Source: Medicago truncatula (lineage: Eukaryota; Streptophyta; Magnoliopsida; Fabales; Fabaceae). Taken from it: DNA of 64,000 nt. Each line of letters starts with the position of its first letter. Position 1 is the first letter of the stretch. This document shows, in pieces, positions 656 through 52,044 of the stretch. The translations under genes were made by a program, and so were the position numbers. The stretch is from positions 15,839,001 to 15,903,000 of the forward strand of contig NC_053043.1 in the NCBI RefSeq assembly GCF_003473485.1, written 5' to 3'. A model generated the notes under the pieces. The model saw nothing but the letters and a program-made list of their open reading frames with translations. It did not search any database and was not told the origin of the DNA.

Positions 656-2475
656 GATATGGATAACGTGTAAAATATATAATTGTTTTTAGAGTGGAAA
701 ATATGATGGTATATGGTATTATGTCTAAACTTTTGGGTCCCAATAATTATTAATTTACCGGTACTTAAAATATGAATTTTTTATTCTACTCGTTTGTACA
801 TATTAAGATATTTATATGTATAGATTTGTGGTAAAAATTTTTTTAGATATATACCATCCATATATAATTTTGGTCCTCCTTAACTATGTGTCTAATCCGG
901 ATAACGTTGAATAAATACACTAGTAGTTATAATTAAAGACTTTTGAAGGTAAAGGCTTCTTATTTATGATAAATCTATACCATTGATTTAAATACGCGAT
1001 TATTAATTTTAAATTGAAAGACTACAACTAGTTTAGTTCTTTTTTTTTTTTTTGTACACGTGTGACTAATTGCAATAAAAGTAGTCTTGTTTTACAATGC
1101 ATGGATCCTGATCACATAAAACTCTTAGTCTATTGTTTTATAGGTAATACTTCTAGCCGAGTTAAGATCATCTCCATTTATTATCCACTTCATTTTTACA
1201 ATTCGGAGAGATAATGACATAATTTTTTTTAAAAAGTAATTAATGATGATGGAACCCACTTAATGGTAGGATCCACTATCTATTTTATATGTTTATCTCT
1301 CTCCAAATTGCATATTCCATTTATTTTGCTAAATCGAGAAGATTCTTACCCCTCCTAGCCTTTATACAAAAACTGATGATTCAAACTTAAATTCTCCTAA
1401 CAACCATAGTGTGAACATAAAAGTCTGTCCATTGATCATAATAGAAAAAACATTATGCAATTTAAATATAATTGAAGTTTTTCTTTAAAATATCGACAAA
1501 GTAAATATATCATTTTTTTTAGAGTGGGTAAAATATATAATTGGATAACGTGTAAAATATAAATCGAAGTTGTCTTTCAAATTATTATTTCTCACATAAA
1601 ATGTAAATTTTTTTAAGTATAACTGAATTGATAGACACGTCACATTAATATGTATGTACTGATTGATATTTAAACCATTAGAGGTGTTTACTTGGACTTG
1701 GCGGTGGTGGTTACAATCTTCGGTGGTCTCGACTCTCAATGAATTTTATGGGTGGAGAGTTTGTTTTTTGAGATCAGGGTGTTGACAAGGGTGTTAGTCA
1801 TAATTAATGCTTGAGGGTGCTGATGAAGGGGAGGCATAACTGTATGTCAATTAGCGGTGTGACTTCTTTTGGAGGTCGCCTCCGTTATTCGGGTTCATAT
1901 CCGTCGTCGCTAGCTCTTGTTTGAGTATTGGATTGTTAAGGTGTTTTGGGTGCCTTGAGCATGCGTGTCCTTCAAACTAAGCCTTTTCCTTTTTGATTTG
2001 ATTGATGTTTGTACCATTGAAAATCATGTCTATTGTCTTACAAATTGTCTGCTAGATTCTGGTGGGCCAATTACTTTTGCTTTGAGATCGGGAGTTGGTG
2101 TTTAGTTGCAATCTTGTTTGGCTGACTATAGTGTTTCTCTGGTGAACCGGAGGTGAGGGGTGCCCTTCTGATTAGACCCAGATGTCTGGTGAACCAATCA
2201 CTTTTGATTCGAGATCGTCAATCAGTTCTTTAGTTCAAGTTCGTGCCTCTCTTTCCTTATTTTTATTTTATGAATCCGTAACAACCAAAGTATGAACACA
2301 TATAAGGGGATGATGGTATATACTATTATGTCAAACAAAAACGTATATACTATATACTTAATTAGAAGAATTTTGTCAAATAAAAATGTTAATTGGAAGA
2401 ATAGACATAAAAAATAAAAAAGTCTACTAGACTAATGTAAGGAATTACCCCATTAATTAGTTGGATCCGTTGGCT

Positions 2476-2483
2476 TATAAAAG
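2476..2483 (+). promoter_or_regulatory. TATA box of narbonin-like gene, copy A
   Basis: TATAAAAG lies about 93 bases before the ATG, within a segment identical in copy B (14954-14961). Its position and sequence fit a plant core promoter. The transcription start is inferred to lie in the 2488-2522 block. Confidence 0.65.
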
Positions 2484-2487
2484 GGCA

Positions 2488-2522
2488 TAAGAGTTGGTCA
2501 TTCCAACCACAACCAATCAAAC
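2488..2522 (+). promoter_or_regulatory. 35 bp leader block shared with the double-MIT gene
   Basis: This 35-base stretch just upstream of the narbonin-like start is identical, base for base, to the reverse complement of 35420-35454, just upstream of the unrelated double-MIT gene. It is also present in copy B (about 14966-15000). Shorter collinear matches lie farther upstream: atatactattatg at 2318-2330 and cttaattagaaga at 2357-2369, paired with 35605-35617 and 35588-35600. Confidence 0.85.
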
Positions 2523-2535
2523 ACACAAAAAGCAC

Positions 2536-2536
<1 letters not shown>

Positions 2537-2572
<36 letters not shown>
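2537..2572 (+). repeat. (TATC)9 microsatellite in the 5' leader
   Basis: Nine tandem TATC units end four bases before the narbonin-like ATG. Copy B has eight units (15015-15046). This is one of the very few differences between the copies near the gene. In copy B the change opens a longer reading frame through the leader, but that frame has no upstream ATG. Confidence 0.95.
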
Positions 2573-2575
2573 ATA

Positions 2576-3505
2576 ATGTCCCATACTCATCAGATCAATG
2601 CTGTTGTGAAGCCAATCATTTTTCGCGAATACATTGGTGTGAAAGATATCCCAAAAAATTTAAAGGATTTTCCAGCTGAGATGATCAACGACGACATCGA
2701 AGAATTCCATTTTATTTTGGGCACTCTGAGGGAGGTGTATAGTGGAGATGGAAAAGGCAAGGGAGAATTCTATCGGACTTGGAATTTTAATAATTTCAGT
2801 CCAGCAAAAGTGGCGAAGCTGAAGAAAGATCATAAGAATGTTAAGGTGATAATAAGCATTGGAGGGTTTGGCGCTGAAAATCCATTCAATCCCAAAGAGA
2901 TTGAATCATGGAGTACCAAGGCGAAACAATCGATCAAAAAGCTCATCAATGAATACCAAGAGTACTCAAAGGATAGCAGCAGCACCGACGAGTGCCATTG
3001 CGATGACATAATTGATGGTATTGATATTAACTATGAGTACAGCAATTGCAATCCGGATGAGTTTTCTTCCTGCATAGGAGAACTCATAAGAAAACTCAAG
3101 AAGAGTTCCAAATCCATAAAACTGGTGTCCATTGCTCCAACAGAGCTTCTCAAACCCCACTACCATAAATTGTATTGGGCCAACAAAGACATAATTAACT
3201 GGGTTGACTACAAGTTCTACAATCAGACTGTGTCCAGCGCGGATGAATTGGTAAATCTCTATAATAAGTTGCTTAATGAATACGGTACTGATGTTAAACT
3301 CTTGCCAGGAGTCAGCACTGATCCAGATAGTAACACTAACATGACACGAGATGTCTTCATTAAGGGTTGCAAATCCCTCCTCGAAAGCGAATCACTCCCT
3401 GGTATTTTTGTTTGGAACGCTAATGATTCTGCCATGCCCTCCAACGAAGACAATACTCCTTACTTCCTAGAGGAAGTCCTACAAGACCTCCTTACTGATA
3501 ATTGA
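2576..3505 (+). CDS. Narbonin-like GH18-fold protein, copy A
   Basis: Intact 309-residue single-exon gene of the plant narbonin/RuBisCO-associated branch of glycoside hydrolase family 18. Seen: a SIGG segment at residues 93-96 on the third strand of the expected TIM barrel, the family active-site motif at 146-153 read as D-G-I-D-I-N-Y-E, and a late WNAND motif near 280-284. In active GH18 enzymes the last Asp before the Glu is normally present; here it is Asn151 while Glu153 is kept. Narbonins have a GH18 fold without chitinase activity, so a non-catalytic storage or binding role is the likelier inference. No signal peptide or membrane segment is visible, so the protein is probably cytosolic. 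The ATG at 2576 is the first in frame; the open frame above it begins only at a TTG. The protein is identical to copy B. Confidence 0.9.
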   Translation: MSHTHQINAVVKPIIFREYIGVKDIPKNLKDFPAEMINDDIEEFHFILGTLREVYSGDGKGKGEFYRTWNFNNFSPAKVAKLKKDHKNVKVIISIGGFGAENPFNPKEIESWSTKAKQSIKKLINEYQEYSKDSSSTDECHCDDIIDGIDINYEYSNCNPDEFSSCIGELIRKLKKSSKSIKLVSIAPTELLKPHYHKLYWANKDIINWVDYKFYNQTVSSADELVNLYNKLLNEYGTDVKLLPGVSTDPDSNTNMTRDVFIKGCKSLLESESLPGIFVWNANDSAMPSNEDNTPYFLEEVLQDLLTDN

Positions 3506-3816
3506 ATGAATCACATTACAACAAACTACACTACGTTGGTACCTCCTCAAAATATATAAGACCTATTATTCCTATTGTCGTGTGCTCTATTATTATGCTA
3601 TGTTGTGTGTGGATATTTAATAGCTTCTCTTGTATTGTATTAAATAATAAGAAGCAATTATATCCTTTTCCTATCTTAAAAGACTTTAATTTGTCTCATC
3701 TCATGTGTACAACTTAAATAGTCTTTCACCATGTACAAGTGTGTTTTTTCCCATTCTATTAATAAATACCATCATATTTCCTTTAATTACTATGCTGTTT
3801 ATTTTCTTACTTTGCT

Positions 3817-12567: not shown

Positions 12568-14953
12568 ATTACAAGTAATTGACTCTCTAAATGCCATAAA
12601 AGTACCATAAAAAGACTATAAAAATAACGTAATGACTACTGTCATCAATTTATGTTTAATAAAATTATTGAATTAAAAATAGTTATGAAAATGTATTCTT
12701 AATATTAAGTTTCCAAACAAGTTTTTTCATTTTTCATCTTTAAAACAGTTTTTGAAAATATAATTCCCAAACAGATTTTTTTCTTCTTCTTAAAAATAGG
12801 TTTTAAAAACAGATTTATGAAACAGTTTCCAAAAACTGAAAAGCAAAACACAACCAAACAACACCTTAGTCTTATGTTTTTTTTTTTTATTTTTCTTTTT
12901 GGTACAAGAGAGGGCCGAAGCCCACCCTTAGTTTTATGTTTTATAGGTAATACTCCTAACCTTTATACAAAAACTGATGATTCAAACTTTAAATTCTCCT
13001 AACAACCATAGTGTGAACATAAAAGTCTAACCATTGATCATAAAAGAAAAAACATTATGCAAATTAAATATAATTGATATTAATCTTTAAAATATCTACA
13101 AAGTAAATATATAATTGGATATGGATAACGTGTAAAATATATAATTGATTTTAGAGTGTAAAATATGATGGTATATGCTATTATGTTTAAACTTTTGGGT
13201 CCAAATAATTATTAATTTACGGGTACTTAAAATATGAATTTTTTATTCTACTCATTTGTACATATTAAGATATTTTTATGTATAGATTTGTGGTAAATTT
13301 CATTTAGATATATACCATCCATATATAATTTTGGTCATCCTTAACTATGTGTCTAATCCGGACAACGTTGAATAAATACACTAGTAGTTATAATTAAAGA
13401 CTTTTGAAGGTAAACACTTCTTATTTATGATTATTCTATACCATTGATTTAAATACGTGCTTATTAATTTTAAATCGAAAGACAACAACTAGTTTAGTCC
13501 TTTTTTTTTTGTACACGTGTGACTAATTGCAATAACAGTAGTCTTGTTTTTTAATGCATGGATCCTGATCACATAAAATTCTTAATCTATTATTTTATAG
13601 GTATACTTTTAGCCGAGTTAACATCATCTCCATTTATCATCCTCTTTATTTCTATAATTCGGAGAGATAATGACACAAATTTTTTTTTTCAAAAGTAAAA
13701 AGGAATTAATGATGGTGGAACCCATTTAATGGTAGGATAAACTATCTATTTTATATGTTTATCTCTTTCCAAATTGCATATTCCATTTATTTTTCTAAAT
13801 AGAGAGGATTCTTACCCCTCCTAGCCTTTATACAAAAACTGATGATTCAAACTTTAAATTCTCCTAACAACCATAGTGTGAACATAAAAGTCTGTCCGTT
13901 GATCATAATAGAAAAAACATTATGCAATTTAAATATAATTGAAGTTAATCTTTAAAATATCAACAAAGTAAATATATCATTTTTTTTAGAGTAGGTAAAA
14001 TATATAATTGGATAACGTGTAAAATATAAATCGAAGTTGTCTTTCAAATTATTATTTCTCACATAAAATGTAAAAAAGTCTAAGTATAACTGAATTGATA
14101 GACACATCACATTAATATGTATGCAGTGATTGATGTTTAAACCATTAGAGGTGTTTACTTGGACTTGGCGATGGTGGTTATAATCTTTGGTGGTCTCGAC
14201 TCTCAATAAATTTTATGGGTGGAGAGTTTGTTTTTTGAGATCAGGGTGTTGACAAGGGTGTTAGTCATAATGCTTGAGGGTGCTGATGAAGGGGAGGCAT
14301 AACTGTACGTCAATTGGCGGTGTGACTTCTTTTGGAGGTCGCCTCCATTATTCAGGTTGATATCCGTCGTCGCTAGCTCTTGTTTGAGTATTGGATTGTT
14401 AAGGTGTTTTGGGTGCTTTGAGCGTGCGTGTCCTTCAAACTAAGTCTTTTCCTTTTTGATTTGATTGATGTTTGTACCATTGCAAATCATGTCTATTGTC
14501 TTACAAATTGTCTGCTGGATTCTGGTGGACCGGTTACTTTTGGTTCGAGATAGGGAGTTGGTGTCTAGAATTGCAATCTTGTTTGGCGGACTATAGTGTT
14601 TCTCTGGTGAACCGGAGGTGTGGGGTGCCCTTCTGATTAGACTCTGACGTCTGATGAACCAATCACTTTTGATTCGAGATCGTCAGTTAGTTCTTTGTTT
14701 CAAGTTCGTGCCTCTAAAAAAACATGATTTTTCTTATTTTTATTGTATGAATCCGTAACAACCAAAGTATGAACACATATAAGGGGATGATGGTATATAC
14801 TAATATGTCAAACAAAAAACGTATATACTATATACTTAATTAGAAGAATTTTGTCAAATAAAAATGTTAATTGGAAGAATAGACATAAAAAATAAAAAAG
14901 TCTACTAGACTAATGTAAGGAATTACCCCATTAATTAGTTGGATCCGTTGGCT

Positions 14954-14961: not shown

Positions 14962-15013
14962 GGCATAAGAGTTGGTCATTCCAACCACAACCAATCAAAC
15001 ACACAAAAAGCAC

Positions 15014-15049: not shown

Positions 15050-15979
15050 ATGTCCCATACTCATCAGATCAATGCTGTTGTGAAGCCAATCATTTTTCGC
15101 GAATACATTGGTGTGAAAGATATCCCAAAAAATTTAAAGGATTTTCCAGCTGAGATGATCAACGACGACATCGAAGAATTCCATTTTATTTTGGGCACTC
15201 TGAGGGAGGTGTATAGTGGAGATGGAAAAGGCAAGGGAGAATTCTATCGGACTTGGAATTTTAATAATTTCAGTCCAGCAAAAGTGGCGAAGCTGAAGAA
15301 AGATCATAAGAATGTTAAGGTGATAATAAGCATTGGAGGGTTTGGCGCTGAAAATCCATTCAATCCCAAAGAGATTGAATCATGGAGTACCAAGGCGAAA
15401 CAATCGATCAAAAAGCTCATCAATGAATACCAAGAGTACTCAAAGGATAGCAGCAGCACCGACGAGTGCCATTGCGATGACATAATTGATGGTATTGATA
15501 TTAACTATGAGTACAGCAATTGCAATCCGGATGAGTTTTCTTCCTGCATAGGAGAACTCATAAGAAAACTCAAGAAGAGTTCCAAATCCATAAAACTGGT
15601 GTCCATTGCTCCAACAGAGCTTCTCAAACCCCACTACCATAAATTGTATTGGGCCAACAAAGACATAATTAACTGGGTTGACTACAAGTTCTACAATCAG
15701 ACTGTGTCCAGCGCGGATGAATTGGTAAATCTCTATAATAAGTTGCTTAATGAATACGGTACTGATGTTAAACTCTTGCCAGGAGTCAGCACTGATCCAG
15801 ATAGTAACACTAACATGACACGAGATGTCTTCATTAAGGGTTGCAAATCCCTCCTCGAAAGCGAATCACTCCCTGGTATTTTTGTTTGGAACGCTAATGA
15901 TTCTGCCATGCCCTCCAACGAAGACAATACTCCTTACTTCCTAGAGGAAGTCCTACAAGACCTCCTTACTGATAATTGA
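15050..15979 (+). CDS. Narbonin-like GH18-fold protein, copy B
   Basis: Intact 309-residue single-exon gene whose protein is identical to the copy A product, with the same Asn151 in the D-G-I-D-I-N-Y-E active-site motif. The ATG at 15050 is chosen. The open frame extends 26 codons farther upstream only because the leader has eight TATC units; that extension starts at TTG, runs through the microsatellite and is absent from the copy A frame, so it is not part of the protein. With identical proteins and nearly identical promoters, the two copies probably act as a dosage pair. Function as for copy A: likely a non-catalytic GH18-fold cytosolic protein. Confidence 0.9.
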   Translation: MSHTHQINAVVKPIIFREYIGVKDIPKNLKDFPAEMINDDIEEFHFILGTLREVYSGDGKGKGEFYRTWNFNNFSPAKVAKLKKDHKNVKVIISIGGFGAENPFNPKEIESWSTKAKQSIKKLINEYQEYSKDSSSTDECHCDDIIDGIDINYEYSNCNPDEFSSCIGELIRKLKKSSKSIKLVSIAPTELLKPHYHKLYWANKDIINWVDYKFYNQTVSSADELVNLYNKLLNEYGTDVKLLPGVSTDPDSNTNMTRDVFIKGCKSLLESESLPGIFVWNANDSAMPSNEDNTPYFLEEVLQDLLTDN

Positions 15980-17770: not shown

Positions 17771-18399
17771 ATCCCTGATCATGTTTCATTCGTAAGGATC
17801 CATTGAAAGGGAAATCTTTATTGTTTTGACCACTGCGTATACTCTTTTATACGATTTCCCTTCAATTGACCTCTTTCTATTATAATGACCATTTGCATGT
17901 AAGTCTTTCAAAAGTTTATTATTTATTTTTTGAAATAATAGTTTTTATTTTTTTAAGGAAAAAAAAAATCTTTTGCTATTATTGATAAAGTTCATGTCCT
18001 ATTATTTTTTCTGGAAATGATGTCACAGCTTTTGAGGAAATATAATATTTTGTACTTGCTCGGTTTTAAATTGTTTGGTGTATAAGGCAGAAACTGAAGC
18101 ATTCAAGTCAATTTAATTCACTGCAATTGTTACTTAATTTAAGGAAGTCTTTGTATTTAATTTTGAAGTACGTTAAAAAGAAATGATTCTATAAAGTCTT
18201 TCAATTATTTAGACATGTCTTAATACTAATAACCTTGTATATGTTTGGTATTGTCAAATTTCTTGTAGTGCAAGGTATTCACCATACACAAATAAAAGAT
18301 ATCAATAGAGATCTTCTTGATGTAGCAACAAACAATCCGCAAAAAATAACTACAGTTACATATCTTAGCTCTTCGAACACATCCAAATGATCGACAAAC

Positions 18400-18750
18400 C
18401 ACCCATCAACCTGCACTAATACACAAAAGGTTCGGTGTGCTGCCTAGTTTAATGATGAAGATGAAATTTGGTGGAAGAATTTTCAAGTTTGTTGTGATCA
18501 ACAAGGAAAATTTTGTGTCCAAATTCTTTCGAGTTGATCTTCAAGACAAAAAATATGCTGTTTTCTAATCCCTAAATCAAGCAACTGTGCTTGTTGGAAA
18601 GTATGCTACTAAATTTGAGGAACTGTCTCGTTTTTATCATCCTTACCGTAATGCTAACAGTGATCATTCAAAGTAATTGAAGCTCGTGAATGGACTGCGT
18701 TCAGATATCTTATATGGGGTTGTGACTTTAGACACGAAATTTTTTGGTGA
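18400..18750 (+). pseudogene. Retrotransposon gag remnant (left copy)
   Basis: In shifting plus-strand frames this gives gag-like text: QKVRCAA, DEIWWKNF, then KYATKFEELSRFYHPY near 18606-18650 and VNGLRSDILYGV near 18690-18725. These match the plant Ty3/gypsy retrotrans_gag pattern (…WW…, KFEELS, …NGL…I). Frames are broken. The same remnant lies at 24110-24500 in the partner copy. Confidence 0.6.
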
Positions 18751-18857
18751 AAAGAACGTTGTTGGAGGGTCTGCGAATCCAAGGGTGCCATGGAGTTCAT
18801 AAAACACTTGATTTTCCTTCTCTATGAAAAAAAACTATAAATATATATGCTCCGACT

Positions 18858-19607
18858 TTATATAAATACAAGAAGAGATTGCAAGGTAAAACTAGCTTGT
18901 ATGAATGTAAAATAAAGAGCCAAAAGAGCACCTATTGTAGAAAGTCCCACAGCCCAACTTGTTAAATAGTTATGAACAAGCGAAGCTCTGAATCTCGCAC
19001 GCCAACAACCCAAATACTCATTCGCCTCATTCACCACTTTGTACAAATATGACTCATTCATATCAGGAACTATTTCTTTAGCTATGTTGTTGATCAATTC
19101 CGCGACATGTTCATCACTTCCTAAAGAATGATGAATAACCCCTTTATAATGAAGAGCAGAAACATCATTAGCTGAGTTTATGAGTCTGTTTAAGAAAAAC
19201 ATGTAAGTTGTCATGTCTAGATTGCATCTCTTGTGACATTTTTCAAATGCAACTATGTTGCGAAAAACAGTACCTCTGTGATCACCAATGTACAAAGGTG
19301 GAATAGTTAGTTCCTTTACCATAATTCCCCATTTTTTTCCAAAGCTTATATCCATCAATTCTCTACTCTCACATGCTTTAGTTTTCACACCCCCTTTTTT
19401 TAGTTCTGTTATTGAATGAATCATCTGGCTCTGACATCCTCTTGGTTCTTCGCCAATGAGTTTTGGCCTTATGTTGTATCTAAGAAGATCAAGAACATGT
19501 TCAATTTTGAACTTGTAAGATGTTTGACATTCAGGGGTTTTTCATGATTCGGATTGAAGCAATTGGTAGAAGAATATGAAAGAAAGATTGTAGAAACTCA
19601 TTTGTGG
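18858..19607 (-). pseudogene. DUF247 pseudogene, truncated at both ends
   Basis: Nearly identical to the middle-to-C-terminal half of the intact DUF247 gene at 24760-26292, but without its first roughly 220 residues (homology stops at 19607) and without the last 50 or so, which a 260 bp deletion replaced with a short unrelated tail. It also has a premature stop at 19542-19544 where the intact gene has an Arg codon (CGA to TGA). The C-terminal membrane segment is still readable. Non-functional as a DUF247 protein. Confidence 0.9.
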
Positions 19608-23764: not shown

Positions 23765-25626
23765 AAAATATAATATTTTGTACTTGCTTGATCGGTTTTA
23801 AATTGTTTGGTGTAAAAGGCAGAAACTGAAGCATTCAAGTCTTTGTATTTAATTTTTGAAGTACGTTCAAAAGGAATGATTCTATGAAGTCTTTGAATTA
23901 TTTAGACATGTCTTAATACTAATAACCTTGTATATGTTTGGTATTGTCAAATTTCTTGTAGTGCAATTCACCATACACAAATAATTGAAATCAATGGAGA
24001 TCTTCTTGATGTAGCAACAAACACTCCAAAAAAAATAACTACAGTTACATATCTTAGCTCTTCGAACACATCCAAATGATCGACAAATCACCGATCAAAC
24101 CTGACAACCTGGTCACTGTGCTTTTAAGGATGCCCTTGACCTTGAGGCTGCTCTAAGAAGGATGAAGAACATGGAAAATATTTTCACAAAATTATCAAGT
24201 GCACTAATACACAAAAGGTTCGGTGTGCTGCCTAGTTAAATGATGAAGATGAAAATTGGTGTGAGAATTTTCAAGTTTGTTGGGATCAACATGGAATATT
24301 TTCTGTTGTATTTTGATTTGTCCTTTTAAGACAAGAAATAAGCTGTTTTCTAATCCCTATATCAAACAACTGTGCCTGTCGGAAAATATGCTACTAAATT
24401 CGAGGAACTGTCTCGTTTTTATCATTCTTACCGTAATGCTAACAGTGATCATTCAAAGTGATTGAAGATCGTGAATGGACTGCGTTATATCAAGTTGTGA
24501 CTTTAGACGCGAATTTTTGGTTATAAGAACGTTGTTGCGAATCCAAGTGTAGCATGGAATTCATAAAACACTTGATTTTCCTTCTCTATGAAAAAAAACT
24601 ATAAATATATGCTCCAACTTTAAATAAATACAAGAAGAGATTGCAAGGGAAAACTAGCTCACAAACAATATCACAATGAAAGAAAATACATAGAAAGAGA
24701 AAATAAGTAGAGACATCGATCACATGTATGACAAGCATCAATCCCTGATATGTAGATATTCAATTATTAGTACCATGGTCGATTTTTTTACTGACATCGT
24801 CGAATACTGTATAGTGAGGAGGGTCACGAAATGGAATTATAATCAAACTTCTTATCACTGAACTGAACTTTGCTTTCTCCAGTTTTGTGGCCGCATCTGC
24901 GAAACCACAAATTGCTTGTATGAATGTAAAATAAAGTGCCAAAAGAGCACCTAATGTAGAAAGTCCCACAGCCCAACTTGTTAAATAGTTATGAACAAGC
25001 GAAGCTCTGAATCTCGCACGCCAACAACCCAAATACTCATTCGCCTCATTCACCACGTTGTACAAATATGACTCATTCATATCAGGAACTATTTCTTTAG
25101 CTATGTTGTTGATCAATTCCGCGACATGTTCATCACTTCCTAAAGAATGATGAATAACCCCTTTATAATGAAGAGCAGAAACATCATTAGCTGAATTTAT
25201 GAGTCTGTTTAAGAAAAACATGTAAGTTGTCATGTCTGGATTGCATCTCTTGTGACATTTTTCAAATGCAACTATGTTGCGAAAAACAGTACCTCTGTGA
25301 TCACCAATGTACAAAGGTGGAATAGTTAGTTCCTTTACCATAATTCCCCATTTTTTTCCAAAGCTTATATCCATCAACTCTCTACTCTCGCAGGCTTTAA
25401 TTTTCACACCCCCTTCTTTTAGTTCTGTTATTGAATGAATCATCTGGCTCTGACATCCTCTTGGCTCTTCGCCAATGAGTTTCGGTCTTATGTTGTATCT
25501 AAGAAGATCAAGAACATGTTCAATTTTGAACTTGTAAGATGTTTGACATTCAGGGGTTTTTCGTGATTCGGATTGAAGCAATCGGTAGAAGAATTTGAAA
25601 GAAAGATTGTAGAAACTCATTTGTGG
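23765..25626. repeat. Second segmental duplication, right copy
   Basis: Partner of 18038-19607, same orientation, about 5.7 kb away. It holds a gag remnant and the C-terminal part of the intact DUF247 gene. It keeps the 260 bp that the left copy has lost, so it is closer to the parental form, though the left copy has small segments (near 18110-18130) missing here. Confidence 0.85.
24110..24500 (+). pseudogene. Retrotransposon gag remnant (right copy)
   Basis: Same broken gag-like text as at 18400-18750, with extra upstream sequence reading AFKDALDLEAALRRMKNME. Multiple stops and frameshifts. It lies just downstream of the DUF247 gene in opposite orientation. Confidence 0.55.
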
Positions 25627-31439: not shown

Positions 31440-33640
31440 ATATGATTTAATACAATTTTCCCTTTATTTTTTATATTTTGAAACCTTGAGGGTTAAATCA
31501 AATCCCCAAAAGAGCACTTTGACACACTTGCTTAGGTATAGAGAATCTTACCAATTAAATTGTTCTTGCACTATTGAATGCAATCTTGCACAGGTTCTTC
31601 TTTATAGACAATAAAGGTTCATCATCCAAATCTTCTATTATAGGATTATTGAGATTGTTCTGTCATCATTTCTTGAACGGTTAGCCGGCCTCAACAATAT
31701 ATGTTGGTTTCTTAAAACCACTAGAAGACCGTTCTTCATCTGGAGCATTGTTGCATATATTTTGGAATGTGAAGGAGTGATGGAGTTCTGGTACGTACTA
31801 AAACCACCTAAATATTACATTATATTATTTAGGTGCTTATTAACTTATTTTTTAAGTAATCATATAGAGTTCCCCAAAATTCTTGTCAATTTTAGATAGC
31901 TTGTTTTTTAGTATCATCATAGCTACTGTCACATGTTTCCAATTTATCTGTATGTTTAAAGATCATGGAATGCTTGCAATATCAATTAATAAGAATTATG
32001 AGTATCAGGAAATTTAGAAGCAAGCAAGGAGAGAGAAGGTAGCAAGCCAAGTCAAAGGGTTCAAGAAAACAGAGAAAGTAGATTCTCTAAGCGAGTCAAG
32101 TCAGAGAATTGAAGATGGATTGGAAGATAAGATTCCTTAAGCGAGCATAAATTTACTTTAGCGATTTAAGGTGAAATTAGTGACCTGTTGAATGAGCCGA
32201 CAATTACTTTATACCGAAGAAATCTCAATTCTCTAAGTGAGCACTTGTTTGCTTGGAGAATTTTAACTTTTCTGTGAAATATAAATAGCAACTTAGATTA
32301 TAAATTTTGGTTTTCTTAAAATTTCTAATGTTACATAAAATAGAGAGTTTGGAAGGCGACCAAAAATGGTGAAGAGGCATTGGAAGATTGTATCATCAAA
32401 ATTTTAAGCTATTTCGTCTCATTCTCATCTATTTGTACTTGCTACCATGAGTATATGTAAAATTGAGATTAGGTGTAGTTAGCTATGTATATTATGTAAA
32501 CTCTTGATCTAGATATGTGTGTGTATTGTTTCATTAAACTATATCAATGAAGTTATTTTTGCACTTAATGGTTTTCCAACCTGAAAATCCAAGACTGAAC
32601 TTTTGGTTTAGGAAGTAATAGAAATAGACTTTTTACATAAGGGATATGGAGTAGTTTTATATGCAGAGGCTAGTTTTTAGACATATAAAGCTATATTTAC
32701 ACTCAAAAACTACTATCCTAACTTAATGTTATTGATGAATTAATTGAGCGAGACATCTGAAGTCGATAGGTATAAAAGATATCTACGTATAGCACTCCCT
32801 TAGTCAAAAGATTAATCTCAGTCTGTACGTTGGAGAAGCATTAAGTAAATAAATAAAAACATTGATATAATGAAATATGATTTATATATAACCGGTCATA
32901 TCAAGTATCTACATTATCTATACTATATGTAAAGAAAGTATACCATTAATATAACATGTTGCGCATACATAACCGCGTTGGTGGTGGTGAGAAAAGGAAT
33001 AAACCTGATTCATCTTGATGTAGACTTTCACGGCGACGAGGTGGACACCAAAAACAACAAAGGTGATATTGAGGGCAGGAGTGTTGTGACACATCTGATT
33101 GTCAACATTGGGATGCTTCCTCCTCTCGTCCCTCCTTCTGTAGAACTCTGTTGTATGCATCTCTCGATCCCATTTTTTTATCGAAACAGATCTGGAGACC
33201 GACCTATTTCTCTACCAAAACCACCGAAAACAATCTGTTAGAGTTCTGGAGGATGGTAGTGCGGAGGGCCAGAGCCACTCCTTGCACCACTGCAGTGGTC
33301 GCTACGTCTTATCAGAGAATTGTTTGGATGAAAGATAGATGACAGTGCGAACTTAAGGTATAATAATTTTTTTAATACATTTCTACTAAAAATAGGGTAC
33401 TTCAAGATCGATCGAGTTGTTTTTTTACATGCAGTAGTAGACTTTTTTTTTTAAGGAATGTAGTAGTAGACTTGTTGTTGCTGATAACTTTTGTATCATT
33501 GTAAACTTTCTCTCATGTGCATCCAACAAAAAAATCAAAATAAAGTAAGCATAGTTGTTAAGATTTACTTATATTTAGACAGAACTCCAAATTACTAGAA
33601 ACCTTTTCTATAAGAAACAGGGGGTTACTAAAAAAACCTA
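31440..33640. other. Intergenic; no recognised gene
   Basis: AT-rich to about 32900. Overlapping short frames occupy 32918-33342 in somewhat more GC-balanced sequence (one minus-strand frame, 32918-33160, has a hydrophobic middle), but none shows a known motif and none is extended by a plausible exon. Confidence 0.35.
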
Positions 33641-33644
33641 TGGT

Positions 33645-33950
33645 TTTGTAGGAATTTAATTGCAATTTTAGTCCTCCTATTTGTTCAATTTATGGATTTT
33701 GGTCCCCTAATTTTTAAACCCCGTAATTTTAATCCCATAGTTTTTTCAATTTTAGGAATTGAGGCCAACCTTTCAACTGACTCTGATATGGCACAATTTT
33801 AAATGACATGGCATGAACTCAGTACACACATGAAAGTCATGTCATGTCATATTAAACTTAAACTTTTTTTTTTTTGAGGGATAAACTTAAACTTTTTAAC
33901 ATCCAGAAATTGAACAAATGGGGGAGACAAACTTTAATTAAGCTTAAATT
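33645..33950. repeat. MITE-like inverted repeat remnant
   Basis: The left side holds tttagtcctcctatttgttc and ggattttggtccccta. The right side, in reverse complement, holds cccccatttgttcaatttct. This is the pattern of 'tttggtcccc' long-TIR MITEs such as those at 26525 and 35919, but the ends are blurred. Confidence 0.4.
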
Positions 33951-34064
33951 TGTTTAAAGCATAAGGTGTGTCAAGAATAGGAAAAGTGCAATAGAATTCA
34001 CAAAATTAAAAATCGAAACAGCCCAAAGCTACTACAAACCAAAAGATTCAGAGATGAAATGATG

Positions 34065-34525
34065 TGGCTTATTTGCTGGCCTCAGATTAATGATTCTATT
34101 TTCTCAGACAAGCTTCTAAATGTGGAGCAACTCGTAGATAGGATTAAGTCCTCGTGAAAATGGTTTCTTGGCAAGAACTTCGGGAATTCTTGTTTTAATT
34201 ATGAGTAGGAAGGTGGAACCTATTCTACGTTTGGGCCGATCGAGATTTGTGTAGGGGGTTCAGTATGGTGGTCTATGCTCGAAGGTGGCTTTTCTTGGCA
34301 GGGAGGTTTTCCTCCGTTCTTTTGCTTAGGTTCCTTTGTTCAGTCCATTCTTTGTTGCTCTGGTGCTTAAGATGCTTAGCTCCGGATACACGTTTTCGTT
34401 GTTTTTGCTTTTGCCTTGATTTGGTTTGTTTATCGTCTCTTCCTGTTTACCTTGTGCTCCGTGTATCTCTTGCTATCTTTAGCTTGTGTTGCTAATATTA
34501 ATTTGGCATTCAAAAGAATAAAGAA
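34065..34525 (+). mobile_element. LINE 3' end remnant
   Basis: Around 34138-34205 shifting frames give DRIKSS, KWFLGKNFGNSC and NYE, the usual C-terminal text of plant LINE reverse transcriptase ORFs (…DRIK…SWKWFL…C.YEW). An untranslated tail follows that ends in an A-rich stretch near 34500-34530. It is truncated at the 5' side, as is normal for LINE copies. Confidence 0.55.
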
Positions 34526-34581
34526 ACCATTACTCATGCTCCTAAACACACTTTTTTCAATTAGTAAAAATGTGCTTTGAT

Positions 34582-35400
34582 TTAGGAACGGCTTCTAGTT
34601 CTCTGCTTGAATTTGCATGGCCAACATCGTCCCATGGCCGTTCTTGGCTTCTCAGCCACATTATTCGGTTTCTCCATGACAATTGTGGAATTCAACCCCG
34701 CTCTTAGCTTATCCTGCTCAGGATCCTCTCCACTTCTCTCACCACCATTCTCCTGCTTCATTTCCTGCCTCAAAGCAACAGCAACATCCCCATCAGATGC
34801 GGGTCTCGGCAACCCATCACCAAGCACAAAACGGATCTCCTCAGCACGACGAAGATACCCTGTGCATTTCTGAGTAATAGCTTCTCTGATTTTAGGGTTT
34901 TTCTCGTATTTGAGGTGTGTTTTGAAATACTCTAAAGTGTTCATGTATAAAGGAAACGCTTTTGCATAGTTTCCAGCATTATCTTCTTGCACAGCTTGTT
35001 TCACGTATTCTATTGCTTGTTCCTTGAAAAAAGCGGAATTAAACCCGGCTCTTACCTTACTCTTCTCAGGATCCTCTCCATCTCCCTCTCCATCTCTCTC
35101 CCCATCATTCTTCGGCTTCGTTTCTGGCCTCAAAGTAACAGCAGCATCCCCATTAGAAGCTGGTCCCGGCATACCATCATCAAGCACAAAACGGATCTCC
35201 TCAGCACGACGAAGATACTCTGAAAATTTCTGAGTAATAGCTTCTTTGATTTCAGGGTTTTTCTCGTATTTGAGATGTGTTTTGAAATACTCTAAAGCGT
35301 TCATGTATAACGGAAACGCTCTTGCGTAGTTTCCAGCATTATCTTCTTGCACAGCTTGTTTCACGTATTCTATTGCTTGCTCCTTGAAATTGCTATACAT
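34582..35400 (-). CDS. Double-MIT protein derived from the VPS4/SKD1 N-terminus
   Basis: Intact 272-residue single-exon frame from the ATG at 35400. It carries two nearly identical copies of the VPS4/SKD1 N-terminal region: MIT three-helix domain 1 at about 1-76 (FKEQAIEYVKQAVQEDNAGN, ending EYLRRAEEIRFVLDDG) and domain 2 at about 122-197. Each is followed by the acidic, Pro/Gly-rich VPS4 linker. VPS4 is the AAA ATPase that disassembles ESCRT-III; its MIT domain binds ESCRT-III tails. Here the AAA module is absent: after EKPNNVAEK the frame runs into a short basic tail instead of the Walker A region. It may be a decoy or adaptor binding ESCRT-III, or a non-functional gene piece (both inference). 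Its leader shares a 35 bp identical block with the narbonin-like genes. Confidence 0.8.
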   Translation of the reverse strand: MYSNFKEQAIEYVKQAVQEDNAGNYARAFPLYMNALEYFKTHLKYEKNPEIKEAITQKFSEYLRRAEEIRFVLDDGMPGPASNGDAAVTLRPETKPKNDGERDGEGDGEDPEKSKVRAGFNSAFFKEQAIEYVKQAVQEDNAGNYAKAFPLYMNTLEYFKTHLKYEKNPKIREAITQKCTGYLRRAEEIRFVLGDGLPRPASDGDVAVALRQEMKQENGGERSGEDPEQDKLRAGLNSTIVMEKPNNVAEKPRTAMGRCWPCKFKQRTRSRS

Positions 35401-35419
35401 TTTCTTCTGGTTTTTGTGG

Positions 35420-35454
35420 GTTTGATTGGTTGTGGTTGGAATGACCAACTCTTA
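35420..35454 (-). promoter_or_regulatory. 35 bp leader block shared with narbonin-like genes
   Basis: Reverse complement of 2488-2522 with no mismatch, located 20-54 bases upstream of the double-MIT ATG. Upstream on the same strand, 35588-35600 and 35605-35617 match 2357-2369 and 2318-2330 in the same order. The TATA box of the narbonin-like genes is not conserved here. Confidence 0.85.
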
Positions 35455-35918
35455 ATTAGAATGGGATAAATCAAAATAAAGTATGCATACACTTTTGCCT
35501 ATTGTTTTCTCATTAACTTTTTTGTTAGACTTCTTTACAATTTTTTTTTGTTTGACTGCCTAAAAAAAACTTTTTGTTTGACTACACTCTTCTAATTAAG
35601 CCGGCATAATAGTATATTATTTTTTTTGGTAGAACGGAATAATAGTATGTATATTTTTTTGGGTAGAAGGGAATAATAGTATATATAGCAAACCATTTTT
35701 ATTTGTCAAAAAAAAAAAAAAAAGCAAACCATTTTTAAGCAATATAATATACCTAAGAAATTAAAAATAAGAAAATTAGGTGAAAGGAACTGAAAATACA
35801 TTCATATTGTATAATACATTAAACATTTACGATTAGGTATCCTCAGAAAGAAAGAAAAAAAGTACGATTAGGTGAAAATCGTATAAAATAATCACATGTA
35901 CCTCAACAAAAAAAAAAT

Positions 35919-36357
35919 GCTAAATTACCTTTTTGGTCCTCTAACTATTTAGTTGGTATCGGATTGGTCCTCTAACTAAAAATTGATTTATTTCGGTCCT
36001 CTAAGTTTCTAACTGTTACTACATTTAGTCCTTTCTGTTAGTTTTATTCAAATAAACGTTAGGGTTTGTGTTATGTGGGTCCTCTAACTTTATTTATTAG
36101 CATCATTTTGGTCATATTCCTTGTTAAGGTATTATGATTAAATAGTGACGGATATTATTGGTAACTGTTATGGTTCATATGTATGTGTGAAATAGGAGGT
36201 CAGGTACCCATATAACACAAACCCTAACGTTTATTTAAATAAAACGACTAAATGTAGTAACGGTGAGAAACTTAGAGGACCAAAATAAATCAATTTTTAG
36301 TTAGAGGACCAATCTGATACCAACTAAATAGTTAGAGGACCAAAAATGTAATTAAGC
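35919..36357. mobile_element. About 440 bp long-TIR MITE
   Basis: Near-perfect inverted arms: left gctaaattacctttttggtc and the right complement gcttaattacatttttggtc, continuing through ctctaactatttag, aaaattgatttatttcggtc and aaccctaacgtttatt. The flanks are c plus 10 A on the left and c plus 8 A on the right, a possible 9 bp duplication blurred by slippage. Probably Mutator-like. Confidence 0.75.
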
Positions 36358-38425: not shown

Positions 38426-39201
38426 ACGCTAATTTTATAACATATGTAGATTTTTTTTTGTGGAAATTGATTTTTTTTGGTGGAGATGATTCAATAATTC
38501 TAAGGTCGTATGCTCCATCTCAAATTTGATTCTTTCCGATGTTAATTTGGGAGGACTAATTTAACTTTTGTAAAAAGAAATATTCTAAGATCATAATCTA
38601 AAGAACAATTATCTTGTGTCTGATCGTATAGAGAATTTCTGCAAAAGTGCGTTTAGTACATATTATCCGATTAATTCAACCTATTTTTGGACTCACATAG
38701 AAAATCTCTTGTGGTTGTGTTTATTTCAATACTTTAAGGTTTATTTTATAGAAAATGCTAACAAATATCTAGGAATTATTGGTTAAGAAAACCAATATGA
38801 TAAAAAAAATAATATCTTAAAACCTGTGTAGCCCAATGTTTAAAAATCAAAAGATATTTTTGCAATAAATTTTTTGTCATTTTTATCTTCTTTACTAGCG
38901 TTGCATGTGAACTAATTTTATTTGGATTGTCAAAATCATGGTCACTTTGTGCTGTTTTTGACATAAAATCTCGCATTTGTCTTGTACCAACTTGTTAATT
39001 GCAGCATGAATGTGGTCAATATTATGGCATGTTAATTGCAATATGAGTTTGTTCCTTCAAAAAAAAATTGCAATATGAGTTTGTTTTATTAAATATTTCG
39101 CCATATTGAATCTCTGGTTCACGGATAATGGTCTCTTTAATTTAACGGGGTGGACGGAAGGTGAAGAGGGAATGTGAAAAAATATTTTTAATTTAACATA
39201 T
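38426..39201. other. AT-rich intergenic; no gene seen
   Basis: No credible frame; a short minus frame at 38776-38976 has no motif. The text ttgcaatatgagtttgtt occurs twice near 39036-39082. Confidence 0.4.
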
Positions 39202-39210
39202 TTGATTTAA

Positions 39211-40524
39211 GGGTTAATAGACCTTTACCCCCTGTAATATAGGTCACTTTTGGTTTTGTTCCCTGTAAAAACAAATTTTTCAATTCGGTCCTTGTAAAAT
39301 TTTTTTGTTTTGGAAAACCCCCTAGACTAGCTGACTGTGCATTTTTGCTGATGTGGCATGTTGTGTCACCCTTTTTGGATGACGTTGCGCGCTGACTGTA
39401 TAATTATTTTTTTTAATTTTTTTATGGGGTACATGTGGCATTAATGATTATTTTTTAAAAAAAATAAAAAAATTCTTAAAAAATTTAAAAAAACGAAAAA
39501 AATGAAATAAATTCTAGAAAAATAAAAAAATTAATAAAAATGATTAAAAAAACGAAAATAATTACGGAAAAATTAATAAAAATCTGGTAAATGAAAAATA
39601 ATGAAAAAAATAGAAAATTTAGTAAAAAAAAATTCTGGAATAATTTAAAAAATCTGGTAAAATGAAAAAAATATAGAAAATTTAATAAAATAAAATCTGG
39701 AAAAATTAATATATTTCAAAAAATTCATATTTCCATATTATTTCAATAGAGGAAATATTTAAAAATTCTGGAAAAATAAAAAAAAAATTCATATTTTTTC
39801 GAAATTAAGAAGTTTTATTTTATAAAAAAATAAAAAATTCAGCAACTTAAAATATTTCAAAATTTATGAATCTAATAAGAATAGAATTAAAAATGAAAGT
39901 TCAGATTTTTCTTTCGAAATTAAAAAGTTTGTTTTTTTATTTTTTATACAGAAAATCAAAATATTGGAAAGTATATTAATAATTAGAAAAACATAAAATT
40001 AGGTCATGAAGAATAGAATTTCGATATATATTAATTTTTTTTATAGAATTTCGATTTTCTTTTATAATTTTAATTTAATTCAGATTTTTTTTAATAATAT
40101 TTTTGAAATTTTCGATATATATTAATTTTTTTTATTAAATTTTCTAGATTTTTTAAATTTTTTCATTTTTATTTATTTTTCCATAATTATTTTTTTTAAT
40201 CATTTTTATTAATATTTTTATTTTTCGAGAATTTATTTTATTTTTTATAATATTTTTTCGTTTTTTTAAGAATTTTTTATTTTTAAAAAAAATCATAAAT
40301 TCCACTTGTACCCCATAAAAAATAAAAATAATTATACAGTCAGCGCGCCACGTCATCCGAAAAAGGTGACGCAGCGTGCCACATTAGCAAAAATGTACAG
40401 TCAGCTGCTCTAGGGGGGTTTTCCAAAACAAAAAAAATTTACAAGGACCGAATCCAAAAAAAAAAATTACAGGGGGCAAAACCAAAAGTGACATATATTA
40501 CAGGGGATAAAAGCCTATTAACCC
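39211..40524. mobile_element. 1.3 kb MULE-type long-TIR element, non-coding
   Basis: Inverted arms of about 190-210 bp. The left begins gggttaatagacctttaccc; the right ends with the complement, and both include ttttggaaaaccccctag-like and cagtcagc text. The 9 bp duplication TTGATTTAA flanks it (39202-39210 and 40525-40533). The interior is extremely A/T-rich low-complexity sequence without coding capacity, which fits a non-autonomous Mutator-like element. Confidence 0.88.
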
Positions 40525-40533
40525 TTGATTTAA

Positions 40534-42088
40534 TTATTAGAAAGGGAAGAGAGGGGAGAGAAGGGTAGTAAAATCCCTTTAAAACCCATTTGTAGAGCAC
40601 TGTGTGTGTGGGGGGGGGGGGGGGTCTTTGGAAGTCGTGGTCCCCCTATATTTTTAAGGGTTTTCTATTTTGTGCAAATTTGCACATGTTAAGAAGTTTC
40701 AAATGTATAAATTTTATATGGAAACTTGTACATTTAATATTAAATATAAAATTTTTGAATAAATAATTGTTGTTTTTCAAGAAAAAATTACTACTAGTTG
40801 TTTTAGCATGTACAATGCCGTGCATGTTAGACAAACTCTATTTTTAATAATTTTTTTATATACTACAATTAAACTATATTAGAATATTTCTAAAATATAT
40901 GTTAGGTTATGGTCCCCCAATTAATCTAATTAAAATGATCAGCATGTTATTAGATTAATTGACAACTAATATCATTAATTTTTTACGTTATATTATTTTT
41001 AATTAACTCATGGTCCTTTCCGCAACATATGTTAATTTGAATGAAACAAAATGATATAGCTTTGCAAAATAAAAGGCTATTTTAAAGCAAAAAAAAATGA
41101 ACAAATAAAAACAGGGGAATAAAATATAATTTAGTCCTTAATTGATTTTCTTGAAACAACATATTTTCTTAAAAATAGGGGATTAAAATATGATTTAGTT
41201 CTCATATGGTCCTTTCCTTAACATATTCTTGAAACAATGATTTTCTCAATTACAATGTCAATAAAAACATCGCTCAATATAAGTAATCAAACAATTTTCT
41301 CATTTTACTATTCATCTCTTTTGCAATTTCACGTCTGATTCTTGATAATATTCATATCATAAAAAAAAATTCAACTATTATAATTGTGATAATTAATTTC
41401 AGAGACAACTCTAAAAGCAAATATACCAATATACCAACAGAATAAACACTACCAAAACGAATAATTAGAACTCATGCTCAAATAAGCATGTATTTTGTGT
41501 TATTAAATAATTAAAATAAATAGTATCTCTACCCTCTTACTTCTATCCCAGACCCACAGTTTAATTTTCTGTTTTATTTTTCAAATGCAGTGAGGTCCCA
41601 GACCCACAATTTATTTTGTCTGAGTTTGTGTCTGTAGTACTTTATCAATTTAAATGAATAAATATCATTTAATTTTTATAAAAAAAATAAATAATAATAA
41701 TAATAATAATAAACTGCACCCCAACATATATATCTGATGTGCATGTAGCCCTTTACCAACCATCTAAGCAATAGTGACAAGAGGAAACCTCTATAATAAA
41801 TATGTCTTACATTAAACAAATGATGGTATCATCCGATAAACTCAAAATTTATCAAAACGTCAGCTACATTTTCCTTCATCAAAGTCAGCTATTACCTTCT
41901 TATATTTTAATTATAAAATGCCAAAAAAAAAAAAAAAAAAAAAAAGAGAGACAGAGAGAATTAGGCTTATAAGCCATAGAATGAAGCTTAAAATGCATAA
42001 TTAGCCTATTGTCTTTTTATTTAGTCTTCAAGGATCTGTATCTTATATTTTTTTTCTTTGGAAATTGATTGAAATAAGAAACAAAATA
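40534..42088. other. HMA upstream region; no other gene seen
   Basis: Contains a run of 15 G (40610-40624), a (TAA)n microsatellite near 41691-41712, and a poly(A)/GA run near 41920-41958 about 130-170 bp before the HMA start codon. No protein-like frame. I did not notice a palindromic zinc-deficiency element of the RTGTCGACAY type. Confidence 0.45.
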
Positions 42089-45000: not shown

Positions 45001-46887
45001 AGCCATGGTTTCATCTAGCACTTGTGGTTTTATTGAGTGGATGCCCTTGTGCTCTTATCCTCTCCACACCGGTTGCAATCTTTTGTGCTCTCACAAAAGC
45101 TGCAATAAGTGGATTACTATTGAAAGGTGGAGATTATCTTGAAACACTTTCTAGAATTAAGACGGTGGCTTTTGATAAAACAGGCACCATAACAAGAGGA
45201 GAGTTCTCTGTAACAGATTTTAGTGCTGGAGATGACATCAACAATGAGACCTTATTGTACTGGTAGGTTTTCATTTATCTATCGAACGTAATAATGTTCG
45301 TAGTTTAGCCCTGCTTGAATAAACAAATTAATGGAGCAATTATAGCATACACGGTTATCATAAAAGAGCTTATGTATAAGCTATTTGGTTAATGAAAACT
45401 TTGGTAGGATTTCAAGTATTGAGAGTAAATCAAGTCATCCAGTGGCAGGTGCACTAGTGGATTATGCAAGGTTGCACTCTATCAAACCAGTCCCAGAAAA
45501 TGTGGAGAATTTTCAAAATTTTCCAGGGGAAGGAATTTTTGGTACGATTGATGGTAGAGATATCTATATAGGAAACAAGAGAGTTGGTGTCAGAGCTATA
45601 TGTAAAAGAGGTGATTGTATTCAGAACTTAATTCTTTAAGGATTTCTAATTAAGAATGTCTGAAAATGTGATTCATTACTCATGTTTATATGTTGATCAT
45701 TGAATTTGATAGTTTATGATCTATAATTAAATTCTACTATTATATTTATAGATAACTGCGAAGTACAATTTCAAAGACCTGAGATTTCTACCAAGAAAAA
45801 TAACTGTGAAGAAACTCTAGTTGGAGTTTTCAGCCTAGTTGATGCTTGTAGATCAGGTGCTTTAGAGGCAATGGAAGAGCTAAAGTTATTAGGAGTCAGA
45901 TCAGTCATGCTGACAGGAGATAGCTCTCAGGTTGCTATGTATGTTCAGAGTCAGGTATGATCAATAATGCATATATTTCTAAAACTAAAATGAAGATTTT
46001 GTTATTAACCTTATAAGTTTTGACCATTAATGCTTCATTTGTTTACTTATTCTTATCAGTTAAAGAATGCTATAGACATAGTTCATGCAGAGCTTCTACC
46101 ACATGAAAAGGCAAAACTCATTGAGAATTTCAAGAAAGAAGGGCCAATAGCCATGATAGGAGATGGCATAAATGATGCTCCTGCATTAGCTACAGCAGAC
46201 ATCGGCATATCAATGGGAATATCTGGTTCAGCTCTTGCAAATGAGACAAGCAACGCGATTCTCATGTCAAACGATATCCGAAAAGTACCTGAAGCGATTC
46301 GTTTAGCAAGAAAAACAACTAGAAAGCTCGTTGAGAATGTCATTATTTCAGTTGGTTTCAAATGTGCCATACTTGCATTAGCAATTGCAGGTTATCCATT
46401 AGTTTGGCTAGCTGTATTGACCGATGTTGGAACATGTTTACTTGTGATTCTCAATAGCATGTTAATTTTACAAGAGAATCACAAATATGAAAAAAGAGAA
46501 TCAACCAAAGGTAGTAAATATGGTAAATTTTTGGAAGATAAGACCAAACCATTACTTAACAAGCAAAGTAATATTGATGAGGAAAAAGGACTTCTTAGTG
46601 GTGAAGAGTGTGGTAAAGATTGTTGTAAAAATGCTACTCATTATGTGGAAACTTCAAAGGAAAGAAATGATGAATCTTGTGGAGTTTCAAAGTTGAGTTT
46701 ACTCAATGGAAATGATCATGGAATGTTTATGTTTGTTGAAGTTCATGTTGTGAAGCATTGTGTTATGATACAAGATTCTAGCATTCTTACTTTGGAATCT
46801 CAAGGCCAAAAGGACAAATCTATAACTGTTTCAGAGACAAGTGGGATTAGTGAGTGCTGCAAGAATAGATGCTGTAATGACATTTAA
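42089..46887 (+). CDS. HMA: P1B-type heavy-metal ATPase, Zn/Cd (HMA2/3/4 group)
   Basis: Nine exons, phase-consistent with GT-AG introns: 42089-42269, 42542-42799, 42926-43023, 43736-43991, 44243-44380, 44938-45262, 45408-45610, 45752-45954 and 46060-46887; 829 residues. Seen: an N-terminal HMA metal-binding loop G14-M-C-C-A-T-E20 (the CC-x-x-E form of Zn/Cd HMAs); actuator TGE at 242-244; the membrane metal site C346-P-C348; phosphorylation motif D390-K-T-G-T; H429-P of the ATP domain; and GDGINDAP at 588-595. The C-terminal tail is Cys-rich with paired Cys, ending [12 protein letters not shown], but shorter than in Arabidopsis HMA2/HMA4 and without a long His run. The family pumps Zn2+/Cd2+ out of the cytosol; whether this one sits at the plasma membrane (HMA2/4) or tonoplast (HMA3) cannot be told from sequence. 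Confidence 0.93.
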
Positions 46888-50820: not shown

Positions 50821-52044
50821 ATGGAAGCACAAAGCGCTCACCATGGACAAATAATTGAAATCAGTGGAGAACTCCCTGATGTAGGAAGGAAAATTTGTGG
50901 GGAAGCACCATGTGAGTTCTCAGATGCAGGGTCCATTTCGAAGGATTCTGAAGAACGATCAACTTCTATGCGAAAGCTTTTCATAGCAGTGACACTTTGC
51001 GTTATTTTCATGGCCGTTGAGGTAGTTGGTGGTATTAAGGCCAACAGTCTTGCAATATTGACTGATGCAGCACATTTGCTTTCAGATGTTGCAGCATTTG
51101 CCATCTCCTTATTTTCTATTTGGGCTGGAGGATGGGAACCAAATCCTCGTCAGTCGTTTGGATTTTTTCGAATAGAGATTCTTGGTGCTTTGGTTTCTAT
51201 GCAATTAATATGGCTGCTTGCTGGGATTCTTGTATATGAAGCCATTGCTAGACTCATTGCAGGTCCTCAAGAAGTGGATGGTTTTTTAATGTTTGTAGTT
51301 GCTGCATTTGGTCTTGTGGTGAACATCATTATGGCTTTGGTATTGGGCCATGATCACGGCCATGGCCATGGACATGATCACGGCCACGGACATGATCATC
51401 ATGGCCACAGCCATGGTATTTCAGTTTCTACCAAGCATACAGATGAGCATCATCACACACATGGTGATCAGACTCACCATCATGACAATGAAAAGCATTC
51501 GCATGATGAACACCACCATACTCATGATGATGTGCACCATCATGACCATGACCACAAAGAGGTTACTGAACCACTTCTTGGTGAATCAAAAGGCCGATCC
51601 GAGAAGAAACGGAACATAAATGTACATGGGGCATATCTCCATGTACTTGGAGACTCTATCCAGAGTATTGGTGTAATGATTGGGGGAGCAATCATATGGT
51701 ATAAACCTGAATGGAAAATAGTCGATTTGATTTGCACTCTAATCTTTTCTGTAATTGTCTTGGCCACAACTATCAACATGCTGAGAAACATCCTGGAAGT
51801 CTTGATGGAAAGCACACCACGCGAGATAGATGCTACTCAGCTTCAAAAGGGGCTATTGGAGATGGAAGAAGTAGTGGCTGTTCATGAGCTGCACATATGG
51901 GCCATTACAGTAGGGAAGGTATTACTAGCTTGTCATGTTAAAGTCATTCCTGAAGCAGACGCTGATGTGATGCTTGACAAGGTCGTAGACTACATCAGGA
52001 GGGTTCATAACATTAGTCATGTAACTATTCAGATAGAACGCTAA
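50821..52044 (+). CDS. MTP1: MTP1-type vacuolar zinc transporter (CDF family)
   Basis: Intact 407-residue coding exon starting right after a splice acceptor; the open frame above it begins at TTG in the intron. Seen: N-terminal Cys residues (C26, C31) in a short cytosolic tail; six hydrophobic segments; the CDF metal-site motif HLLSD (85-89) in TM2 and its partner HVLGD in TM5; a long His-rich cytosolic loop (about 180-245, with [22 protein letters not shown]); and a C-terminal cytosolic domain. The family exchanges Zn2+ for H+ at the tonoplast, storing Zn in the vacuole; the His loop acts as a zinc sensor or buffer. It lies 3.9 kb downstream of the HMA zinc ATPase on the same strand. Length and layout are normal. 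Confidence 0.95.
51350..51560 (+). repeat. Imprecise CAY/GGN-rich repeat encoding the His loop
   Basis: Degenerate short repeats of catgatcacggccatgg-type sequence encode the His-Asp-Gly and His-rich stretches of MTP1. Such tracts change length easily between alleles and could alter the zinc-binding loop. Confidence 0.6.

Follow-up and report, generated by a model that had tools for sequence, protein, structure and literature searches.

A double-MIT gene of VPS4 origin carries a narbonin-family leader in a narbonin gene cluster of Medicago truncatula

The window analysed here, a 64,000-nucleotide stretch of the Medicago truncatula genome (C2:15839001-15903000), contains two narbonin-like genes on the forward strand and, on the reverse strand, a gene that encodes two MIT domains in series. 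A short leader of the same family precedes all three, although the narbonin-like and double-MIT genes themselves are unrelated, as the original prediction had held. The genes, their leaders and the upstream elements lie at the following positions of the window.

2317..2427, forward strand: stretch upstream of narbonin-1 that is collinear with sequence upstream of the MIT gene (score 58)
2476..2483, forward strand: narbonin-1 TATA box TATAAAAG, starting 12 bases upstream of the block and without a counterpart in the MIT copy
2488..2534, forward strand: narbonin-1 leader block, 35 identical bases and 47 aligned
2576..3505, forward strand: narbonin-like gene 1, 309 amino acids (Pfam GH18; best solved relative 1NAR, E 4.6e-75)
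14966..15012, forward strand: narbonin-2 leader, equal to that of narbonin-1
15050..15979, forward strand: narbonin-like gene 2, 930 of 930 bases identical to gene 1
34582..35400, reverse strand: double-MIT open reading frame, 272 amino acids, from VPS4/SKD1 exon 1, without the ATPase part
34651..35028, reverse strand: VPS4 unit 2, MIT domain and linker
35029..35388, reverse strand: VPS4 unit 1, MIT domain and linker
35408..35454, reverse strand: narbonin-family leader preceding the double-MIT gene

The observation from which this analysis began, that 35 bases at 2488-2522 on the forward strand recur at 35420-35454 on the reverse strand, is exact, and no such match arose in 100 dinucleotide shuffles. 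A further exact copy of the 35-mer precedes narbonin-2 (14966-15000, forward strand). In BLAST, the match between narbonin-1 and the MIT gene grows to 47 bases, of which 45 are identical and two are mismatched (2488-2534 against 35454-35408 on the reverse strand). The leader RNA is predicted to form one short hairpin that is not clearly above shuffled sequences (29, 15 and 29 of 200 as good), and Rfam at gathering scores gave no match.

Around the window, tblastn revealed seven narbonin-like genes within 281 kb: three that are identical, one with 48% protein identity and three with 45%. The third identical gene, 10 kb to the left of the window, also carries the block, and its 930 coding bases are the same as those of the other two. 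The 45% genes have TTATAAAAGGG and a related leader that matches narbonin-1 with a score of 52 and the MIT leader with a score of 46 (0 of 1,000 shuffles in each comparison). The 48% gene retains its TATA region along with some of the leader (score 37 against narbonin-1, 0 of 1,000 shuffles), and the MIT leader alone matches it weakly (score 21, 11 of 1,000). Upstream of the leader, the 45% genes have no convincing similarity to the MIT flanks. The MIT and narbonin-1 leaders differ at positions 36 and 45 of 47, and at both the 45% and 48% genes have the MIT base; the MIT leader therefore does not seem to have been copied recently from the narbonin-1 leader as it now stands. Because related leaders occur in front of other narbonin genes and two VPS4 genes were found without one, narbonin is the donor.

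The copies within the cluster are of uneven similarity along their length. Over about 1.4 kb (2327-3736), narbonin-1 and narbonin-2 are free of mismatches and are distinguished only by repeat-length indels, and they are 2-8% different in bins of 250 bases from 250 to 2249; their promoter, gene and 3′ end look like the product of gene conversion. A module of about 215 bases is present in two copies upstream of each of these genes (464-679 and 1352-1561; 12953-13166 and 13818-14028). Three further narbonin-like genes (L014-L016, at C2:15797077, 15807242 and 15817402) are identical over 1,060 bases around the start and coding sequence, and their upstream 700 bases, compared without gaps, are not (236 and 304 differences). 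These three appear to be a second homogenised narbonin set in the same cluster.

Similarity between narbonin-1 and the MIT gene continues upstream of the leader, where the two collinear 13-mers that had been noted, TATATACTATTAT (from 2317) and CTTAATTAGAAGA (from 2357), are both present. With the block left out, the score of 58 over 2317-2427 is reached by 0 of 1,000 shuffles (top score 41), and only 8 of 1,276 window tiles score at least as high, seven belonging to narbonin-1 or narbonin-2 and one to the MIT upstream region. Global alignments of the upstream 150, 200 and 300 bases were likewise equalled by 0 of 500 shuffles, whereas the 60 and 100 bases adjacent to the block are no more alike than chance allows (71 and 57 of 500 shuffles equal). 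No similarity above chance was detected when the narbonin and MIT 3′ flanks were compared (51 of 200 shuffles as good), when the MIT 3′ flank was set against the narbonin coding sequence (63 of 100) or in the regions farther upstream (20 of 100).

The MIT upstream region also contains no TATA[AT]A counterpart within 280 bases of the ATG; the nearest TATA-like site is about 285-287 bases away. The best single-gap fit of narbonin-1 to the MIT gene has a loss of 30 bases, the TATA box included, and it is equalled by 25 of 1,000 shuffles, 21 of 2,078 window 30-mers and 1 of 60 in a separate run; as the exact path of change, this loss is only suggestive. Narbonin and MIT genes thus appear, at the level of sequence, to have in common a leader and distal elements and not an intact promoter. 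The original prediction that one gene had taken over the other's promoter and leader therefore holds for the acquisition of 5′ sequence, in the direction from narbonin to MIT, but not for an intact promoter, because the TATA box is absent and the upstream similarity seems to belong to an older promoter.

Common control of the narbonin and MIT genes is a plausible hypothesis, but it is weakened by a TATA box that has no MIT counterpart and by upstream similarity that is best read as an older, interrupted promoter of the narbonin type. In its functional form, the MIT gene would have a working narbonin promoter and leader and would be co-expressed with the narbonin genes, which we consider possible but doubtful. 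Such control is favoured by a leader that differs at only 2 of 47 positions, both apparently changed on the narbonin-1 side, by distal narbonin-type elements that have been kept and by a 272-codon frame that is open, but it has to contend with the lack of a TATA box within 280 bases of the ATG and with the dissimilar 60-100 bases beside the block.

The double-MIT protein matches Pfam MIT in two stretches (E 1.6e-43); MIT is its sole Pfam match, with no AAA ATPase, and its best solved relatives are VPS4 proteins, aligned across the MIT domain and linker only. Its coding sequence has three matches in the genome, namely itself, C4:27460231 (83%) and C2:42325603 (80%), over the first 368-386 bases. 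The latter two are multi-exon VPS4 genes that cover residues 1 to 435 of an Arabidopsis SKD1 query, against which the rest of the window gave E values of 3.5 or worse. Neither VPS4 gene has a match to the narbonin promoter with the block, and the promoter of a narbonin-type region to the left of the window (L005, described below) gave just 26-29-base matches to the two (E 0.001 and 0.005). Similarity to VPS4-A begins 8 bases before the MIT ATG, at the end of the narbonin leader (one base of overlap), and ends inside VPS4 exon 1; because it is confined to that exon, genomic DNA could have been the source. As to signs of a retrogene, the MIT piece lies within a single VPS4 exon, and by eye no run of A stands beside the far-side repeat described below. 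The tail of the protein is short and unrelated to VPS4.

AlphaFold2, run without an alignment, predicted two three-helix bundles with pLDDT mostly 82-91 in ten-residue blocks, joined by low-confidence linkers (pLDDT 64.8 and pTM 0.31 for the whole model). In the MIT domains, Ka/Ks is 0.09 between unit 1 and VPS4-A and 0.15 between unit 2 and VPS4-A, values that include the constrained VPS4-A branch and owe part of their lowness to it; the corresponding figure is 0.13 for VPS4-A against VPS4-B and 0.37 between the units. In the linkers, the same comparisons give 0.44, 0.64, 0.15 and 0.80. Only the between-unit values cover the time since the internal duplication, and they rest on 5 synonymous and 8 non-synonymous changes; over nearly the same stretch (5 and 7 changes), the two classes do not differ significantly (Fisher p 0.056). 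Non-synonymous changes between the units are nevertheless under-represented in the MIT domain compared with the linker (Fisher p 0.0007).

These values bear on a second, similarly tentative reading, in which the MIT frame would be a silent relic, open by chance or because it arrived recently. A missing TATA box, the short unrelated tail and the relaxed linker, with Ka/Ks of up to 0.80, are consistent with a relic, as is the contribution of the VPS4-A branch to the low ratios, which leaves 0.37 between the units on few changes. The reading is opposed by MIT-domain ratios against VPS4-A that are similar to those between VPS4-A and VPS4-B, by the avoidance of the MIT domain by non-synonymous changes and by the prediction that both domains fold as three-helix bundles.

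The sequences on either side of the MIT gene suggest how it came to lie where it does, and the relevant features are these.

33435..33553, reverse strand: right part of an old promoter of narbonin type, which now lies 3′ to the MIT gene (33513-33553 by BLAST, the remainder from a separate alignment)
33532..33553, reverse strand: 22-base direct repeat, far-side copy, 21 of 22 identical
33554..35467, reverse strand: putative 1,914-base insert with leader and MIT gene
35468..35489, reverse strand: 22-base direct repeat, promoter-side copy
35468..35688, reverse strand: left part of the same old promoter (like L005:5192-5431)

A narbonin-type upstream region about 12 kb to the left of the window (L005:5192-5431) carries the 22-mer uninterrupted. 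It is 72% identical to the narbonin-2 upstream region over 218 columns, and the next narbonin coding sequence begins 1.6 kb farther on. The MIT left flank, through the 22-mer, matches L005:5371-5431 at 56 of 65 positions (E 1e-15), and the far flank, from the 22-mer onward, continues the L005 sequence (35 of 41, E 2e-7); joined together, the flanks align continuously with L005 (68 of 82, E 5e-18). Past the 22-mer, the far-flank extension scores 30, reached by 0 of 1,000 shuffles (best 28), and the best local match there is A-rich and differs in its distance from the repeat, which is 37 bases in one sequence and 77 in the other. A 22-base repeat in the flanks was seen once in the real sequence and in 0 of 300 shuffles, by a criterion chosen post hoc. 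A direct repeat at both ends and an empty-site homologue, which is paralogous and not orthologous, are the marks of insertion with target-site duplication. If the upstream part belongs to the target and the block to the insert, this would account for the contrast between a 96% match in the block and patchy similarity upstream of it.

Other marks were sought around the unit. By eye there is no poly(A), terminal inverted repeats are not convincing among the longest 25 of 35 pairs and no recognisable element ends were seen; an A/T-rich pair of 17 bases, 82% alike, lies at 33522-33538 and 35513-35529. Beside the MIT gene there are no narbonin coding or 3′ remnants. We rejected the 22-base repeat as repair filler, since L005 shows a continuous promoter, and we rejected dating of the insertion from the 1/22 and 2/47 differences, since narbonins conserve this leader. 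The stretch of about 34066-34500 was considered as LINE-like for its resemblance to plant LINE tails, a reading that was dropped when two pieces gave no Pfam match.

The leader is of common origin in the narbonin and MIT genes, the MIT coding sequence stems from VPS4, the TATA box is missing, and the direct repeat has a matching uninterrupted site. We propose, with a probability of about 0.7, that the double-MIT gene is a chimera born inside the narbonin cluster, in which a leader-VPS4 unit was inserted into an older narbonin-type promoter. Exon 1 of a VPS4/SKD1 gene would have supplied the MIT domain and linker together with about 8 bases of 5′ UTR, followed by tandem duplication and loss of the ATPase, and a narbonin-family 5′ leader of 47 bases would have been joined directly to this fragment. 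The unit would then have entered the older promoter, perhaps placed within the cluster by break repair, duplicating 22 target bases and parting the distal elements from the TATA end. On this course of events the fusion would have come first and the insertion second, with the unit arriving as one insertion, and the MIT gene may be transcribed from leftover narbonin-type elements without a TATA box.

The main rival for the mechanism does without an insertion: the composite would have been produced by ectopic recombination or unequal crossing-over among the narbonin-type promoters of the cluster, and the 22-base repeat would be the remnant of a second copy. That an insert beginning with narbonin sequence landed in a narbonin promoter is a coincidence, which promoter recombination explains better: it accounts for narbonin sequence flanking the junction on both sides, in a cluster with promoter-like repeats, tandem copies and conversion-like homogenisation. 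We nonetheless regard it as rather unlikely, because the overlap of the flanks is confined to the 22-base repeat and the two, when joined, form one continuous promoter, as target-site duplication predicts.

A search of the genome (429.9 Mb in 42 contigs, up to 3 mismatches, with repeat counts as lower bounds) found the 35-mer at four sites, which belong to the three identical narbonin genes and the double-MIT gene of this one cluster (plus strand: C2:15828957, 15841488 and 15853966; minus strand: C2:15874420); a reversed version of the pattern, used as a control, had none. The dispersed transposon with many unrelated copies, which the original prediction had named as its undoing, was thus not what emerged. 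The 27-base core of the block likewise had no exact match in IMG/VR and GTDB contigs, neither of which is a plant collection. That the block is a piece of such a transposon, for which nothing beyond the direct repeat at the MIT unit speaks, is hardly credible with four sites confined to this cluster, in a many-copies test that covers the 35-base block.

Young chimeric genes that borrow a 5′ leader or promoter from a neighbour are a known kind. The double-MIT gene resembles them in drawing its coding part and leader from different genes, both of whose relatives remain in the genome, and differs in having a leader without a TATA box and in sitting inside another promoter of the donor family. Like the VPS4/SKD1 AAA ATPases, with which it has 83% and 80% DNA identity, it encodes an N-terminal MIT domain and linker; unlike them it has no ATPase, and its MIT part is duplicated. 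The narbonin family (GH18-type, 1NAR), as leader donor, gives it non-coding sequence only. LIP5 and CAPN7 are tandem-MIT proteins (PMC9887185 and PMC9477494), and they share with the double-MIT protein the arrangement of two MIT domains in series, although both domains here are copies of VPS4's own. Neither a C-terminal VSL domain nor a protease was found in the double-MIT protein (Pfam, E up to 0.001), and our searches of open-licence papers brought up no report of this chimera.

If expressed, the gene would give a plant a naturally occurring VPS4 fragment that lacks the ATPase, a possible competitor for ESCRT-III. One speculative and frankly improbable role is that of an ESCRT-III-binding decoy or adaptor under narbonin-type, tissue-specific expression, conferred by a narbonin leader inside a narbonin promoter; it might then act as a tissue-specific brake on, or adaptor of, the multivesicular-body route to the vacuole, which narbonin-type or other vacuolar proteins may take. 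The locus also makes the birth of a gene legible: the genome that holds it still contains relatives of each parent and an empty-site paralogue, which makes the order of events testable.

Several other features of the window were recorded. A MITE-like element, distinct from the features above, occupies 35919-36357 upstream of the MIT gene; it is an inverted repeat with 116-base arms that are 94% complementary. An imperfect palindrome about 1.3 kb long (73%) spans 39198-40537. A DUF247 gene region is duplicated (18038-19607 and 23766-25626), the longest ATG frame of the left copy having 188 codons against 510, with the Pfam assignment made on the long frame only. A HAD-type frame at 46030-46887 could be part of a metal ATPase, and a cation-efflux transporter gene lies about 4 kb farther on, at 50821-52044.
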